A stretch of 38,600 nucleotides of DNA. Origin: a virus. The stretch lies in IMG/VR virus record IMGVR_UViG_3300036859_001048, positions 1-38,600 of that record, one strand, 5' to 3'. Of the stretch, positions 3,820-37,563 are shown in pieces. Below the pieces are notes generated by a model. It saw only the letters and a program-made list of their open reading frames with translations. It was not told the origin of the DNA and did no database searches. The first letter of the stretch is position 1. The number at the start of each line of letters is the position of its first letter. The position numbers and the translations under genes were made by a program.

Positions 3820-5019
3820 GTGGCGACCGGGATCCCAGCCGAGGCCCGCGCGATTATCGACCGCCTCGAAGCGGTGTCGCGCCACGCCGACGATCCTCGA
3901 ATCAGGCGCCGAGACATCGAGGTCGCGCTCGCGGAGCACTTCCGCAGACTGGGTCTCACTCCCCTACCAGTCCGATGGGTCAGCGACGCCGAGATGGGGA
4001 TCCGCGCGGCCCGGAGCGCGGCCGAGAGCGCGGCCCGGAGCGCGGCCCGGAGCGCGGCCGGGAGCGCGGCCGAGAGCGCGGCCCGGAGCGCGGCCCGGAG
4101 CGCGGCCTGGAGCGCGGCCCGGAGCGCGGCCTGGAGCGCGGCCGAGAGCGCGGCCCGGAGCGCGGCCTGGAGCGCGGCCGAGAGCGCGGCCTGGAGCGCG
4201 GCCGAGAGCGCGGCCCGGAGCGCGGCCTGGAGCGCGGCCCGGAGCGCGGCCCGGAGCGCGGCCTGGAGCGCGGCCGAGAGCGCGGCCGAGAGCGCGGCCC
4301 GGAGCGCGGCCTGGAGCGCGGCCCGGAGCGCGGCCCGGAGCGCGGCCGAGAGCGCGGCCGAGAGCGCGGCCCGGAGCGCGGCCCGGAGCGCGGCCGAGAG
4401 CGCGGCCGAGAGCGCGGCCGAGAGCGCGGCCGAGAGCGCGGCCTGGAGCGCGGCCCATCCGGCGATCGCCAGCTGGATCGGGGTGTGGCTGCCCTTCGTG
4501 GACGCTTACGAGGCCGGGCTGTGGCTGTTCTGGGTTCTCGAGCGCGAAGTGATCGCGGTGCCGCGTCCTGCTCTCCACCTCGCTGGCGAACAGCTCCACC
4601 GTGAGGACGGCCCTGCCATTTGGTGGCCCGACGGCGCGCGCTACTTCTTCTGGCGGGGCGTCCAGGTCCCGTCCAAGGTCATCGAGACGCCGGCGGCTCT
4701 CAGGCCCGCCGAGATCCGCGACGAGCGCAACGCCGAGGTACGGCGGGTCATGCTCGAGCGGTTCGGAACCGAGCGCTTTATCCGCGAGTGCGGAGCAGAG
4801 CGCGTCCACGTAGACGAGTACGGCAGCTTGTGGCGCGCCGAGCTAGCAGGCGACGAGGCCCTTGTCATGGTCGAAGTCGTCAACTCAAGCCCTGAGCCCG
4901 ACGGGTCTTTCAAGAACTACTGGCTCCGCGTGCCTCCGAGCATCCGGACGGCCCGCGGGGCGGTCGCCTGGACCTTCGGGATGGAGCCGCGCGACTACCG
5001 ACCGAGAGTCCAGACCTGA
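3820..5019 (+). CDS. DUF6745 protein with an Ala-rich tetrapeptide repeat
   Basis: A 399-residue protein starting at GTG. Residues 1-60 are a helical N domain. Residues 65-212 are 37 consecutive xSAA tetrapeptides where x is R (15), E (13), W (8) or G (1). Residues about 213-399 match DUF6745: LHREDGPAIWWPDGARYFFWRGVQVP, ERNAEVRRVMLERFG, NSSPEPDGSFKNYWLRVPP and AVAWTFGMEPRDYRP. DUF6745 proteins commonly carry Ala-rich repeats before the domain. The function is unknown. The repeat would form a long Ala helix with charged and aromatic residues every fourth position. The repeat DNA leaves other frames open too, but the conserved flanks fix this frame. Confidence 0.8.
   Translation: MATGIPAEARAIIDRLEAVSRHADDPRIRRRDIEVALAEHFRRLGLTPLPVRWVSDAEMGIRAARSAAESAARSAARSAAGSAAESAARSAARSAAWSAARSAAWSAAESAARSAAWSAAESAAWSAAESAARSAAWSAARSAARSAAWSAAESAAESAARSAAWSAARSAARSAAESAAESAARSAARSAAESAAESAAESAAESAAWSAAHPAIASWIGVWLPFVDAYEAGLWLFWVLEREVIAVPRPALHLAGEQLHREDGPAIWWPDGARYFFWRGVQVPSKVIETPAALRPAEIRDERNAEVRRVMLERFGTERFIRECGAERVHVDEYGSLWRAELAGDEALVMVEVVNSSPEPDGSFKNYWLRVPPSIRTARGAVAWTFGMEPRDYRPRVQT
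4012..4455 (+). repeat. 12-bp tandem repeat, 37 units
   Basis: The sequence is 37 units of NNG-AGCGCGGCC. Nine bases per unit (AGCGCGGCC, coding Ser-Ala-Ala) are invariant in every unit, including wobble positions. Only the first two bases of the other codon vary (CGG, GAG, TGG, GGG). The array is in frame inside the DUF6745 gene. Because the unit is a multiple of three and stop-free, long shadow frames run through it in several frames on both strands. Confidence 0.95.
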
Positions 5020-9417: not shown

Positions 9418-9648
9418 ATGAGAGTCAACGTTTACCACGAGGAGATCACCACCGACGTTGTCGTCGTGTCCACGAGAGCATCTACGGGCAACGAGTACCT
9501 CGGCCTGCGCTTCTTCCTGGAGTCAACGCCTTCCCTTCACCGCACCGCACGCGACGACGACCGCTCCGCCGTGACGTTCTGGGTCGGCGACAAGGAATCC
9601 GCCAAGCGGCTGCTCAACGCTGCGCTGGCTGCGTTGGATCTCGTATGA
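9418..9648 (+). CDS. hypothetical protein, 76 residues
   Basis: The product is a small alpha/beta protein (MRVNVYHEEITTDVVVVSTRA, then FWVGDKESAKRLLNAALAALDLV). The leader repeats the ACCGAAGGGAGCGAGTGAA junction seen before 9169. The stop overlaps the ATG of the gene that was later split by the insertion sequence. No family was recognised. Confidence 0.5.
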   Translation: MRVNVYHEEITTDVVVVSTRASTGNEYLGLRFFLESTPSLHRTARDDDRSAVTFWVGDKESAKRLLNAALAALDLV

Positions 9649-9773
9649 ACCTCCTAGACCGTCTTGAAGCCGCTGAGCTAGACGGGGTGGACTACGTCGT
9701 GCTGTTCCCCCACCTGATAGCGGTAGCGCGGGCGGCGGAACCCGCTCGTAAAGTTCGGCAACTATACCCTTGA
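9645..9773 (+). pseudogene. 5' fragment of gene split by the IS
   Basis: The ATG at 9645 overlaps the previous stop. 37 residues are native (MNLLDRLEAAELDGVDYVVL and on) before the frame enters the insertion sequence at 9757 and stops at 9773 after about five IS-coded residues. Removing 9757-12108 (the IS plus one copy of the target duplication) joins this frame exactly to the 3' fragment at 12109, restoring 288 bases, or 95 codons plus stop. The left fragment alone would make a 42-residue peptide. Confidence 0.85.
9749..9756. repeat. left target-site duplication, TAAAGTTC
   Basis: TAAAGTTC occurs immediately outside the left inverted repeat and again immediately outside the right one at 12101-12108. 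Eight-base duplications are typical of the IS1595 family. Confidence 0.95.
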
Positions 9774-9781
9774 CGCCGGTA
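9757..9781 (+). repeat. left terminal inverted repeat of the IS
   Basis: 25 bp matching the complement of 12076-12100 at 22 positions (mismatches at repeat positions 10, 13 and 15). Both share GGCAACTAT at the outer end and GACGCCGGTA at the inner end. The -35 box of the transposase promoter lies inside this repeat. Confidence 0.9.
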
Positions 9782-9798
9782 CCGGCATCTGGTATCGT
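9770..9798 (+). promoter_or_regulatory. transposase promoter
   Basis: TTGACG (9770-9775) and TATCGT (9793-9798) are separated by exactly 17 bases, a good sigma-70/HrdB-type promoter. The predicted transcription start, about seven bases after the -10 box, falls on or next to the ATG at 9805. The transposase mRNA would therefore be leaderless, or nearly so. Confidence 0.65.
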
Positions 9799-9804
9799 TG
9801 AGGT

Positions 9805-10773
9805 ATGCCACCGGTCAATCGAAACAAGCCCCGCCGAGGCTCCGCGTCGGAGTCCCGATATTCCATCTTCGAGTTCGATCGGGAGTTCCCCGACGACGCG
9901 ACGTGCCTTGATTATCTCGTGCGGCGGTTCTACCCGCAGGGAATCTCCTGCCCAACCTGCCGGCGGGTCACGAAGCACCATCGGGTCAAGGCCCGGCCCG
10001 CCTACTCCTGCCAGTTCTGCGGGCACTACGAGTACCCGATGGTGGGCACGATCTTCGAGGGGTCGGCTACCTCACTGAGGCTGTGGTTCTACGGGATCTA
10101 TCTCATGGCGAGCACACGATGCGGAATCTCGGCCAAGCAGCTCGAACGGGAACTTGGGGTCACCTACAAGACCGCATGGAGGATGTTCAACCGGATTCGC
10201 TCCCTCATGTGGCAGGACGACGAGCTGCTCGACGGTGAGGTCGAGGTAGACGAGACCTTCATCGGCGGCAAAGCCAAGTGGCGCAATCGGGGCCTCCCGC
10301 TTGGGCGTGGCCGTGGAGGATCGGGCAAGACCCCTGTCCAGGGCATGGCGCGCCGTCCGACGCCGGCCCGGGGGCGCAAGATCGCCGCCCACGTCGTGGA
10401 GGACGACTCCGGGCGCACCCTGGCGGGTCGGGTCCGGCGTCGGGTCGTGCCCGCCTCCAAGGTCTATACCGACGAGCACCGTGCCTACCGCAACCTGGGG
10501 AGGATGGGCTTCGAGCACGAGTTCGTGACCCACGGGGCCAAGGTCTACGTGAGCGGGGTCGTCCACACGAATACGGTGGAGGCGTTCTGGTCGCACTTGA
10601 AGCGGGGGATCAGCGGCGTATACCACGGCGTCGGGCGGGCGTATCTCCAGAACTACGTGGATGAGTACACGTTCCGCTACAACGCCGCGAGGGACCCGGT
10701 TACCGGGCCGCGCGGCGTGTTCGACGCCGTGCTTTCGCGGGTCGTGAAGGCTTCGCCCGAGACTGCTTCGTAG
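9805..10773 (+). CDS. IS1595-family (ISXO2-like) transposase
   Basis: A 322-residue DDE-type transposase. The N-terminal zinc ribbon has C49/C52 (CPTC) and C69/C72 (CQFC), followed by the helical region typical of the family (ISAKQLERELGVTYKTAWRMFNRIR). Catalytic residues are D149 (GEVEVDETFIGG), D223 (VYTDEHRAY) and N256/E259 in HTNTVEAFWSHLKRGISGVYHGV, the IS1595 signature. A Gly/Arg-rich insert at about 160-190 separates the first two. It would cut and join at the 25-bp repeats and make the 8-bp duplication seen here. It appears intact, so the element may still be mobile. Confidence 0.95.
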   Translation: MPPVNRNKPRRGSASESRYSIFEFDREFPDDATCLDYLVRRFYPQGISCPTCRRVTKHHRVKARPAYSCQFCGHYEYPMVGTIFEGSATSLRLWFYGIYLMASTRCGISAKQLERELGVTYKTAWRMFNRIRSLMWQDDELLDGEVEVDETFIGGKAKWRNRGLPLGRGRGGSGKTPVQGMARRPTPARGRKIAAHVVEDDSGRTLAGRVRRRVVPASKVYTDEHRAYRNLGRMGFEHEFVTHGAKVYVSGVVHTNTVEAFWSHLKRGISGVYHGVGRAYLQNYVDEYTFRYNAARDPVTGPRGVFDAVLSRVVKASPETAS

Positions 10774-10887
10774 CGGTCCGGTCGAACGACCCCGCCCATT
10801 CGTCGCGCGTGGGTATGGGGATCTCCAGCCCGGTCTTGGTGCGCTGGCTGGGCTCGCCCGAGCGTGCGAGGGACCTTTTCCGTGCGC

Positions 10888-11103
10888 TCACCCGGGTCGC
10901 ACGTCCTCGGCAGGCCAGGGGATCCCGTCGGGCTCCCGGTCCTCCACTCGTGCCCGTTCCCATTCATCCTCGGTGCAGACCCAGATAACCGGGAAATCGT
11001 GTCCCTCGACTTCAACCCCAGTTAGAGCGCGCCGAGCGTGCTGATCCCCGAAGGCATCAAGAACCATGATCCTCTCCCCGGGTGCGATGCGTGTCTTGGC
11101 CAT
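10888..11103 (-). CDS. IS cargo: small conserved hypothetical protein
   Basis: A 71-residue minus-strand gene facing the transposase. The in-frame frame extends to 11139, but the ATG at 11103 (MAKTRIAPGERIMVLDAFG) gives the natural-looking start. It is acidic and Trp-containing with a beta-rich first half (VLDAFGDQHARRALTGVEVEGHDFPVIWVC). A WERARVEDREPDGIPWPAEDV tail resembles small hypothetical proteins of actinobacteria. No catalytic motif is visible. Its place inside the element makes it cargo; it may pair functionally with the divergent DUF5343 gene. Confidence 0.55.
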   Translation of the reverse strand: MAKTRIAPGERIMVLDAFGDQHARRALTGVEVEGHDFPVIWVCTEDEWERARVEDREPDGIPWPAEDVRPG

Positions 11104-11177
11104 GTCCCCATGGTCGTCCCGGGCCCGGCGTCCTCGCAAGGAACTCCGGGAAAAAGTTCCTGAGGCCGTTGGGCGGC

Positions 11178-11206
11178 TTGACGGCGTATATTCCGGGGCG
11201 TACCCT
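11178..11206 (+). promoter_or_regulatory. promoter of the DUF5343 cargo gene
   Basis: TTGACG (11178-11183) and TACCCT (11201-11206) are 17 bases apart. The predicted start near 11213 leaves a leader of about 44 bases containing GGAGGT (11245-11250), six bases before the ATG at 11257. Confidence 0.55.
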
Positions 11207-11256
11207 TAGGGACTAAAGGCCGGGGAATACCCTCGGCATAAGCAGGAGGTAGAGTC

Positions 11257-11940
11257 ATGGAGGATCCAAGGACAGACCAGCCGAGCTTCTCCCCGCCATA
11301 CAACGTCCCCTGGGCGACGTTCCTGAGCACCATCGAGAAGGTGGCCGAGGATCTGCCCAATAAGATCGACAGGAGCTATCTGGGTACGCGCTCTGGGAAC
11401 GAGCAAACTTACCTAATCGCGGCCTTCAAGGGCTTTGGGCTCATCGGGGACAAATTCGAGGTCACCGACGATCTCCGTGCCCTGGCGAAGGATTCCGAGG
11501 GGCGGCCTGGGCGGATCGCTGATCTCCTGCGCCAGTTCTATCCAAATGCGATCAAGCTCGGGGAGACGAACGCCACGCCGGGTGAACTGGAGGAGGCCTT
11601 CGTCCAGGCGTACCCGAGGATCACGGGCGCGTCCCGGACCAAGGCGATCCGGTTCTTCCTCTTCGCATGCGATTACGCCGGGCTGCCGAAAAGCCCGCTC
11701 TGGAAGGTCGCCAAAAAGGCTCCCTCATCGGGGGGGCGGCGGGCGGGCCGGCGACCTAGGGGTGAGCCGTCTGCGCCACCGACACCATCATCCGCTCGGA
11801 CCTCAAGCCACCGCGATCGCTACCTCGACATGCTCTTGAAGAAGGCGGAGGAGTCGGAGGAACTGAACGAGGTCCTGCTCGACCGAATCGAGAAACTTCT
11901 GCCAGACGGCCAGACAGCCGACGGAAGGGGGAAAGGATGA
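11257..11940 (+). CDS. IS cargo: DUF5343 protein
   Basis: A 227-residue protein. Residues 12-150 match DUF5343: PYNVPWATFLSTIEKVAEDLPNKIDRSYL, a YLIAAFKGFGLIGDKFEVTDDLRAL winged-helix-like segment, LLRQFYPNAIKL, and SRTKAIRFFLFACDYAGLPKS. A basic Ser/Pro linker (about 155-190) leads to a C-terminal coiled coil (DRYLDMLLKKAEESEELNEVLLDRIEKLLP). The domain's function is not established. It occurs as a stand-alone protein in scattered bacterial islands, which suits mobile cargo. It has its own promoter and a strong ribosome binding site. Confidence 0.75.
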   Translation: MEDPRTDQPSFSPPYNVPWATFLSTIEKVAEDLPNKIDRSYLGTRSGNEQTYLIAAFKGFGLIGDKFEVTDDLRALAKDSEGRPGRIADLLRQFYPNAIKLGETNATPGELEEAFVQAYPRITGASRTKAIRFFLFACDYAGLPKSPLWKVAKKAPSSGGRRAGRRPRGEPSAPPTPSSARTSSHRDRYLDMLLKKAEESEELNEVLLDRIEKLLPDGQTADGRGKG

Positions 11941-11991
11941 GTTAGTGCCCAGCGGCCGGGCGAGAATCCGGTCAAGACGCCATGTAGTACC

Positions 11992-12021
11992 GAGGGAGTC
12001 GGGCTGCCACCCGGCTCCCTC
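11992..12021 (+). terminator. hairpin downstream of DUF5343 gene
   Basis: GAGGGAG (11992-11998) pairs with CTCCCTC (12015-12021), with an inner GGG/CCC extension. It lies about 50 bases after the cargo gene stop and inside the IS right end. It would end cargo transcription before the interrupted host gene. Confidence 0.5.
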
Positions 12022-12075
12022 CCTATTGTCGGCACGATCAACGGAAAAGCAAGCGGCTCATGCCCGGTAATTCTA

Positions 12076-12100
12076 TACCGGCGTCTAAGGGATAGTTGCC
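12076..12100 (-). repeat. right terminal inverted repeat of the IS
   Basis: The complement of the left repeat with three mismatches over 25 bp. It ends ATAGTTGCC at 12100, directly followed by the second copy of TAAAGTTC. Confidence 0.9.
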
Positions 12101-12108
12101 TAAAGTTC
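12101..12108. repeat. right target-site duplication, TAAAGTTC
   Basis: Identical to 9749-9756, marking the right junction of the insertion. Confidence 0.95.
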
Positions 12109-12284
12109 TCGCTCGGCTGATCGCTCCATGCCCACAATGCCACACACTTGGAAACGATCCAAACTGCGGGATGAGCGTTCACGTCTTGCGTCGTCAGTTT
12201 CCCGAGGCTGCGAAAGATGCGTCTGAGGCTTCCTGGAACTTGTACCAAGCCTTGAAGCCTCTGCTCTCCGAGGAGGAGAAGTGA
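12109..12284 (+). pseudogene. 3' fragment of gene split by the IS
   Basis: This is the continuation of the 9645 gene. After TAAAGTTC the frame reads LARLIAPCPQCHTLGNDPNC and on to VHVLRRQFPEAAKDASEASWNLYQALKPLLSEEEK. The CPQC...NPNC-like pairs suggest a small zinc ribbon in the uninterrupted protein. A TTG at 12096 is in frame but has no clear ribosome binding site, so independent expression is doubtful. The end contains the direct repeat CTCCGAGGAGGAGAAGTGA, which also supplies the ribosome binding site of the next gene. Confidence 0.8.
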
Positions 12285-35689: not shown

Positions 35690-37563
35690 CCGAGTCTCGG
35701 TTCGCGCGCGAGGACCTCGAGGCGGTCGTCGACACTCCGAGTGCACCGTCCGCCGAATTCTCCAGGGAGGATCTCGAAGCTGTTGTTGATAGCCCAACGG
35801 CTCCGAGCGCCCAGTTCGCCCGAGAGGACCTCGAGGCGGTCGTCGACACATCGACCGCGCCAGCGGCGCAGTTCGCGCGGCTCGACATGGAGGTCGTCGT
35901 CCCGCGCGATCTCGTCAAGGCACCGCCGGCCCCGGCCGCGGCTCCCTCGCTCGGCGCCTGCTCCGTCCAGGTCCTCATTCGGCCGGTCGGCTCCGAGCCG
36001 ATCGACGTCACCGCGGAGAAGCGGAACCTGTTGTTCTCACAGGGCTCGCCGGGGGGCTACGACTACGCGAGCTTCCGCCTCCCGCGCCAGTTCCCGCTCG
36101 AGTACCCGGAGTGGCGCGCGTGGGCCGAGGTCGAGGTCCGCGACAACGAGGAGATCGTCTGGCAGGGGCGCCTGGAGAGGCCGGGCATGGAGGACGTCGG
36201 CTCCACCGAGTGGCGCACCTTCCAGGCGTTCGGGTGGCAGGCCCACTCCGACGACGACCGCTACCGGGGGATCCTAAAGGACCGGAGGCTGACCAGCTTC
36301 CTCGAGCGCCGGCAGGGCCCGTCTGACTACAAGAACCAGGTCGAGGCCTCGCCCGAGGAGGACCCCACGCTCGGCGACGTGCTCAAGGTCCGCATCCCGA
36401 AGAACCTCGACGAGGCGCCACTCGCGTCCACGCGCCTGGAGCTCGTCTACACGATCCCGGACACCTTCCCGCGCCGGCAGATCAGCCGGGTGCACTTCCG
36501 CTGGAAGGCCAACGTCGCCTCGGCGAGCCTTCTGTTCAAGGTCCGCAACCAAACCGGGGCCGACAAGTACTCCGTCGCCTACACCACGACCGAGCAGGTG
36601 GTCGAGCTGGGCCCGGCCAACTGGTCGGGCACCGACCGCTCGGTGATCCTGGTGCCGTTCTACGTCGGGGTCGATCTCGCCCAGATGAACCCGGCCTTCG
36701 AGGTCCTGATCTACGACTTCCAGGTCTTCGGCACCGTGCTGGACGGGGGCGGCCCCAACAAGCTGCGGGCCTCCGACGTCGTCAAGGAAGTGATCGCGGC
36801 CTCTTGCCCGCGCTTCGACACGACCTACATCTCGGAGACGCCGGCCTCGGTCGACCCGGCGGTCTACGAGGAGCCGACGAACCCGCGGCAGGTCTTCGAC
36901 GAGATGCTCCCGCTCTCGGTGTCGGACCCGCTCAACAACTCGGTCTCGGACCCGCCGTGGCACTGGGGGGTCTACGAGAAGCTCGAGGCCTCCGGCAAGT
37001 ACCGCTTCGTGCTGGAGACGATCGAGGAGAAGGTCACCTACGAGGCCCACGACGTCGAGGTCGAGCCGGTCGAGTTCGACTACCAGGGCCAGTTCAACAA
37101 AGCGATCGTCTCCTACACAGACTCCAAGGGTCAGCCCCAGGAGGTCGCGCGCACCCGAGCCGTCGCCGCGCTGGATGATCTCGGCATCACCCGGACGGTG
37201 ACCTTCTCGGGAGAGTTCCGCGCCACCGGCAAGATCTCCGAGAAGGCGCTCGCCGAGCGGGTCGGCGACTTCCTGCTGCGCGACGCGGCGAACCCGGTGC
37301 GCTCGGGTCAGCTGACGGTCCGCGACAGCGAGCTGCTCGACGTCGCGACCGGCACGCCGGTCCACATCTGCCGGATCAAGGCCGGCCGCTACATCCGGCT
37401 TACCAAGCAGCGCTCGATCGAACCCGGCTCAACCGTGCGGGGCGAGTTCTCGGTCTACCTCATCACCCACGTCGAGGTCGACGAGGACTCCCACGTCGCC
37501 CGGCTGACGCTGGATCGCCCGCCGGCGCTGCTCCCGAACCTGATCGCCCGCATCTCCGCCTGA
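35686..37563 (+). CDS. baseplate hub / tail-associated protein with N-terminal repeats
   Basis: A 625-residue protein. The first ~75 residues are four copies, three complete, of a 19-residue unit (FAREDLEAVVDTPSAPSA-type). A long hub-like part follows: VQVLIRPVGSEPIDVTAEKRNLLFSQGSPGGYDYASFRLPRQ, a VRDNEEIVWQGRL strand, and RASDVVKEVIAASCPRFDTTYI. It ends with a beta domain (SGQLTVRDSELLDVATGTPVHICRIKAGRYIRLTKQ). The pattern fits the tail-tip hub of HK97-type phages. The repeats would sit as a flexible N-terminal arm. It ends in the tandem duplication described separately. Confidence 0.65.
   Translation: MTESRFAREDLEAVVDTPSAPSAEFSREDLEAVVDSPTAPSAQFAREDLEAVVDTSTAPAAQFARLDMEVVVPRDLVKAPPAPAAAPSLGACSVQVLIRPVGSEPIDVTAEKRNLLFSQGSPGGYDYASFRLPRQFPLEYPEWRAWAEVEVRDNEEIVWQGRLERPGMEDVGSTEWRTFQAFGWQAHSDDDRYRGILKDRRLTSFLERRQGPSDYKNQVEASPEEDPTLGDVLKVRIPKNLDEAPLASTRLELVYTIPDTFPRRQISRVHFRWKANVASASLLFKVRNQTGADKYSVAYTTTEQVVELGPANWSGTDRSVILVPFYVGVDLAQMNPAFEVLIYDFQVFGTVLDGGGPNKLRASDVVKEVIAASCPRFDTTYISETPASVDPAVYEEPTNPRQVFDEMLPLSVSDPLNNSVSDPPWHWGVYEKLEASGKYRFVLETIEEKVTYEAHDVEVEPVEFDYQGQFNKAIVSYTDSKGQPQEVARTRAVAALDDLGITRTVTFSGEFRATGKISEKALAERVGDFLLRDAANPVRSGQLTVRDSELLDVATGTPVHICRIKAGRYIRLTKQRSIEPGSTVRGEFSVYLITHVEVDEDSHVARLTLDRPPALLPNLIARISA

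Follow-up and report, generated by a model that had tools for sequence, protein, structure and literature searches.

A cargo-bearing IS1595-family element in an actinobacterial siphovirus that is probably temperate

The locus and the boundaries of the element

The window (the whole stretch of DNA that was analysed, a 38,600-nt IMG/VR virus record) has no terminal repeats. It encodes a DnaB-like helicase and RusA to the left of the element described here, and an integrase, terminase, portal, capsid and tape measure to its right; the phage also encodes endonuclease VII-like and sigma-factor-like proteins, a protease and a peptidase. The element is located in the early arm of this phage. The terminase shares 50% identity with its counterparts in Gordonia and Arthrobacter phages. 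An initial annotation of this DNA had pointed to a prophage or a recent event, and since an integrase is encoded, a temperate phage or a prophage is indeed plausible. Two tandem repeats were seen elsewhere in the window: a 12-bp repeat in about 38 copies (4004-4456) encodes a run of SAAR/SAAE/SAAW type in a phage gene (ORF 3820-5019), and a 57-bp repeat in about 3 copies (35700-35876) lies at the start of the phage gene 35686-37563.

Table 1. Features of the element and of the phage genes around it (window coordinates)
Feature	Position	Strand	Details
Upstream phage gene	9418..9648	+	76 aa, unknown function; homologues in Gordonia and Brevundimonas phages
5' part of the split gene	9645..9756	+	Codons 1-37 and one base; would now read into the element
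Target-site duplication, left copy	9749..9756	.	TAAAGTTC, 75% A+T
IS1595-family element, cargo-bearing (tIS type)	9757-12100		2344 bp, between the two copies of the 8-mer
Left terminal inverted repeat (IRL)	9757..9781	+	25 bp, GGCAACTATACCCTTGACGCCGGTA
Promoter-like site	9770..9798	+	TTGACG-17-TATCGT; -35 in the left repeat, -10 ending 6 bases before the transposase ATG (9805)
IS1595-family transposase	9805..10773	+	322 aa, zinc-ribbon and ISXO2-like DDE domains; PF12762, PF12760, NF033547
Cargo gene, DUF5343-related	11257..11940	+	227 aa; predicted helical, possibly tandem-HTH, N-terminal domain and a C-terminal helical tail
Right terminal inverted repeat (IRR)	12076..12100	-	25 bp, GGCAACTATCCCTTAGACGCCGGTA
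Target-site duplication, right copy	12101..12108	.	TAAAGTTC
3' part of the split gene	12109..12284	+	CPQC motif
Downstream phage gene	12281..12493	+	70 aa, unknown function; GTG start overlaps the stop of the split gene

The transposase frame is intact, and its product matches the IS1595-family model NF033547 (E 6e-61, 206 bits, cut-off 75), the IS1595 DDE domain PF12762 (E 1.1e-41, 142.8 bits, cut-off 27) and the N-terminal zinc-ribbon PF12760 (E 4.3e-8, 33.4 bits, cut-off 25.4). An antisense ORF (10888-11139) received no support from family matches or coding statistics.

The initial annotation had described an IS insertion with 25-bp inverted repeats at its ends and two copies of TAAAGTTC around it. 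Both copies are confirmed to the base, and the repeats are present, with 22 of 25 positions in agreement between IRL and IRR, so that they are imperfect. The insertion, with a target duplication and a split phage frame, is therefore upheld; what had been overlooked is the second (cargo) gene, and with it the tIS nature of the element. The joint score of repeats and duplication is 29 at the element; in 60 Markov-shuffled regions the best score averaged 24 and never exceeded 26.5.

Relatives of the transposase in bacterial genomes, in plasmids and on viral contigs were collected and scanned for repeats and 8-bp duplications. This yielded 83 elements with both, the present one counted in (the duplications of the 82 relatives being accepted at 7/8 or better), and the family trait of an 8-bp target duplication with terminal inverted repeats of about 25 bp is thus found here as it is in 82 relatives. 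The duplications of these elements are 76% A+T, versus 49% for their flanks (Wilcoxon p 2e-13). The present phage has a G+C content of 69%, and only 0.7% of its 8-mers attain the 75% A+T of TAAAGTTC. Since the target is one of the rare A+T-rich 8-mers of the phage and the duplications of the relatives are A+T-rich as well, the site is as expected for the IS1595 family, whose targets are A+T-rich.

Passenger elements of the IS1595 type, such as MTnSag1 (tISSag10) and tISCpe8, have 25-bp repeats, 8-bp direct repeats and A+T-rich targets, and a circular intermediate has been observed for MTnSag1 (2017 review, PMC5704250). The present element resembles them in repeat length, duplication length and A+T-rich target, and also in its size of about 2 kb and in the association of an IS1595-type DDE transposase with one passenger gene (PMC5704250). 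It differs in that their cargo is lincosamide resistance, on a chromosome or plasmid, whereas here the cargo is DUF5343-related, the carrier is a phage genome and the repeats agree at 22/25. Because of the shared traits, we consider it a member of this already described tIS type. As an event, the insertion is nothing unusual for the IS1595 family; it is the cargo family and the carriage by a phage that are of interest.

The interrupted phage gene

It had been proposed that deletion of the element and of one copy of the 8-mer restores an ancestral gene, and the arithmetic is right: the two flanking parts join into 288 nt, that is 95 codons and a stop. The rebuilt frame overlaps both of its neighbours by 4 bp, forming ATGA with the stop of the upstream gene and GTGA with the start of the downstream one, as occurs at 8 of 37 gene junctions in our rough gene calls for this phage (these two junctions counted in). 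Of the three frames of the right half, only the one that continues the left half is open. Because of the overlaps with both neighbours, we think that the 95-codon frame was very probably a real gene before the insertion. Codon statistics give -6 bits for the joined frame versus -33 and -90 for the other forward frames; they are neutral rather than decisive, since one reverse frame, at -5 bits, equals it.

The rebuilt 95-aa protein has no homologue in phages, viral contigs or related phage contigs and no match in Pfam, NCBIfam or PHROG. Against 396 Actinomycetota genomes the best E value was 1.8e-4 per genome, from short pieces mostly of larger frames, and looks like chance. Neither the empty-site 30-mer nor the upstream 30-mer occurs in viral contigs, and no synteny with Gordonia phage SweatNTears was seen around the upstream gene. 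A homologue or an empty site across the join had been suggested as a check; the searches were made and came back empty, which speaks neither for nor against the gene. Since nothing in the collections searched spans the join or preserves an empty site, we call the gene an orphan, and it is the anatomy of the site that argues for its existence before the insertion. The idea that it is zinc-ribbon-like is not supported: instead of two Cys/His knuckles there is one CPQC with a single further Cys, and there is no family match.

An insertion beside a gene, rather than into one, would also account for the missing homologue across the join and for the neutral codon scores, with a reverse frame scoring as well. 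The right frame would then be a gene of its own, beginning at TTG 12096 or at ATG 12171, the left stub would be noncoding, and there would never have been a 95-codon gene; the in-frame TTG with AAGGG just upstream would be a possible start. However, this TTG and its AAGGG are inside the right repeat of the element and were thus absent before the insertion, and the coincidence of the ATGA and GTGA junctions with two halves in phase is more easily understood if the halves were once joined. We therefore regard a separate right-hand gene as unlikely.

If a 95-codon gene was indeed split, its left part, as it now stands, would run to a stop inside the element after 42 aa. Translation could restart for the right part at TTG 12096, which is in frame and would give 62 aa. 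The split gene would be dispensable, or its function already lost, with a product shortened to 42 aa.

Putative promoter, relatives and cargo of the element

Of the 84 elements compared, 54 have a -35-like TTGAC in the left repeat and only 17 have one in the right repeat; on the left it is usually accompanied by a -10 box just inside. The full arrangement, with 9 or more of the 12 consensus bases, was counted at the left end in 41/84, where shuffling of the sequence beyond the repeat gives an expectation of 5.6 and a maximum of 12; at the right end the count was 8/84 versus 2.9 expected, with no clear association with cargo in reverse orientation. Judging from this enrichment at the left end, it is very likely that the left repeat also serves as part of the transposase promoter. 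The short distance in the present element between the -10 box and the transposase ATG suggests a leaderless message.

The ends of the elements are similar to each other (GG-N-AA-T/C-TAT...TTGAC), and the exact pattern of the present ends has no match in viral contigs. The median length of the 83 elements is 2063 bp, and most have about 1 kb in addition to the transposase. This additional part varies: a passenger gene within the terminal repeats, which defines the tIS type, is found here as elsewhere, and among the relatives it often encodes a DNA methyltransferase or an endonuclease (MvaI/BcnI and NgoFVII-type), or else an HNH, trypsin-like or IrrE-like protein. At IS1595 loci that include L059, L089, L095, L115 and L135, several elements with intact repeats and 8-bp duplications have a DNA methyltransferase as cargo; in some of them it is accompanied by a restriction protein of type I-like kind or by an endonuclease of the MvaI/BcnI type.

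The nearest transposase found (57% identity) is that of L114, on the viral contig IMGVR_UViG_3300031576_000147. This element likewise resides on a phage contig, next to a DnaB-like helicase gene, with repeats matching at 17/20, a duplication of 8/8 and a -35 in its left repeat; its cargo is different. It lies beside or inside a repetitive ORF with Ala-Ser runs (L114 3710-3927), which recalls the repeat gene of the present phage (ORF 3820-5019), possibly by coincidence.

The cargo protein has no direct match in Pfam, NCBIfam or PHROG, and the DUF5343 HMM run directly on the 38,600-nt window gave none either. Nevertheless, 13 of 17 aligned members of its family match PF17278 (DUF5343) at E <= 0.01, and the cargo protein has in common with DUF5343 an N-terminal pattern around PPY...P..ID.S. 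As the protein of the present phage is itself below the PF17278 cut-off, we use only the label "DUF5343-related". No paper naming this family was found in the literature searched.

Relatives of the cargo occur in at least four other IS1595 elements. Three of these relatives, near transposases, were detected by tblastn (L100, L122, L127) and one came from a genome search (L225). L100 and L225, both from Gemmatimonadota, are complete, with repeats of 20/20 and duplications of 8/8; in L122 and L127, repeats (18/20) enclose the transposase and the cargo relative, with no duplication. L100 and L225 differ from the present element in being in a host genome and not a phage, in the sequence of their terminal repeats and in their length (2.6 and 3.6 kb). 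The family is sparse: it was found in 2/396 genomes of Actinomycetota and, in the phyla to which a Gemmatimonadota and an Acidobacteria genome belong, in 8/298 and 18/297, respectively. An IS1595 transposase is nearby in only 2 of 29 fetched loci, one of them the genome of L100; the other 27 genes stand alone, and by eye no consistent gene neighbour could be recognised.

The position of the 227-aa ORF between the repeats, together with the transposase, and its relatives in four other IS1595 elements could be taken to mean that it is a second transposition protein, required by this subgroup of IS, and not cargo. We give this little credence: most relatives of the element bear unrelated cargo, and 27/29 of the fetched cargo-family genes have no neighbouring IS1595 transposase. 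Since the family mostly stands alone, the cargo is not a core part of these elements; its distribution is that of a host-type gene repeatedly captured by IS1595 elements. The unrelated cargo of the relatives also suggests that the passenger gene would be dispensable for transposition.

A first structural model of the cargo protein, from 4 sequences, was poor, and Foldseek returned nothing with it. A second one, from 17 sequences, is good (mean pLDDT 85, residues 11-150 mostly >90), and again Foldseek gave no significant match. When the top 1000 Foldseek chains were realigned to it, the DNA-recognition region of FokI was best (Z 6.8 over 142 residues, rmsd 3.5 A, a weak match below 8), followed by BrxA (Z 6.7) and PaqCI (5.5), after which the scores fall to 3.8. 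BrxA and FokI are themselves structural relatives through paired HTH lobes (PMC9240713), so that the two matches are mutually consistent. The likeness has no support at the sequence level, where profile comparison with BrxA (hhalign) was not significant (probability 2%). With Z below 8 and this profile result, a double-HTH DNA-binding protein is a hypothesis drawn from the model; our leading guess is that the cargo may bind DNA in a regulatory or defence-like capacity, for the phage or for its host.

Carriage by a phage

The initial annotation considered IS elements uncommon in compact phage genomes. The picture is mixed: tblastn with the transposase gave matches in 2 of 50,697 phage records, both short unverified scaffolds, but IS1595 transposases are encoded on hundreds of contigs in IMG/VR. 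That the element and its flanks are different molecules, joined by repeats during assembly, is very improbable: the contig is metagenomic, and the only near-identical one (L002, a 100% identical fragment from another metagenome) covers 14.9-19.2 kb of the window and not the insertion site, but a chimera would not be expected to have an exact 8-bp duplication of the family's normal length at both ends, nor to keep the gene overlaps across the site.

We think that the best explanation, with a probability of about 0.88, is that a cargo-bearing IS1595-family (tIS) element moved by transposition into a short orphan gene, in the early/replication arm of an actinobacterial siphovirus that is probably temperate. 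The element would have picked one of the rare A+T-rich 8-mers of the phage and duplicated it; its transposase would be expressed from the promoter whose -35 is in the left repeat, and the putative DNA-binding protein would be carried along. One may go further and suppose that IS1595 cargo elements shuttle small DNA-targeting genes in general, among them methyltransferases, restriction endonucleases and the DUF5343-related protein with a FokI/BrxA-like double-HTH fold, the phage delivering a defence-related DNA-binding gene to its host; this broader idea is speculative, and we hold it to be rather doubtful.

The locus is a clean example, resolved to the base, of a phage that harbours an IS1595 element with cargo, and shows a route by which such cargo may be moved between hosts. 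The analysis also indicates that in many IS1595 elements a -35-like box for the transposase is located within the left inverted repeat. Finally, it links the uncharacterised family DUF5343 to repeated capture by transposons, with a structural hypothesis that is testable.
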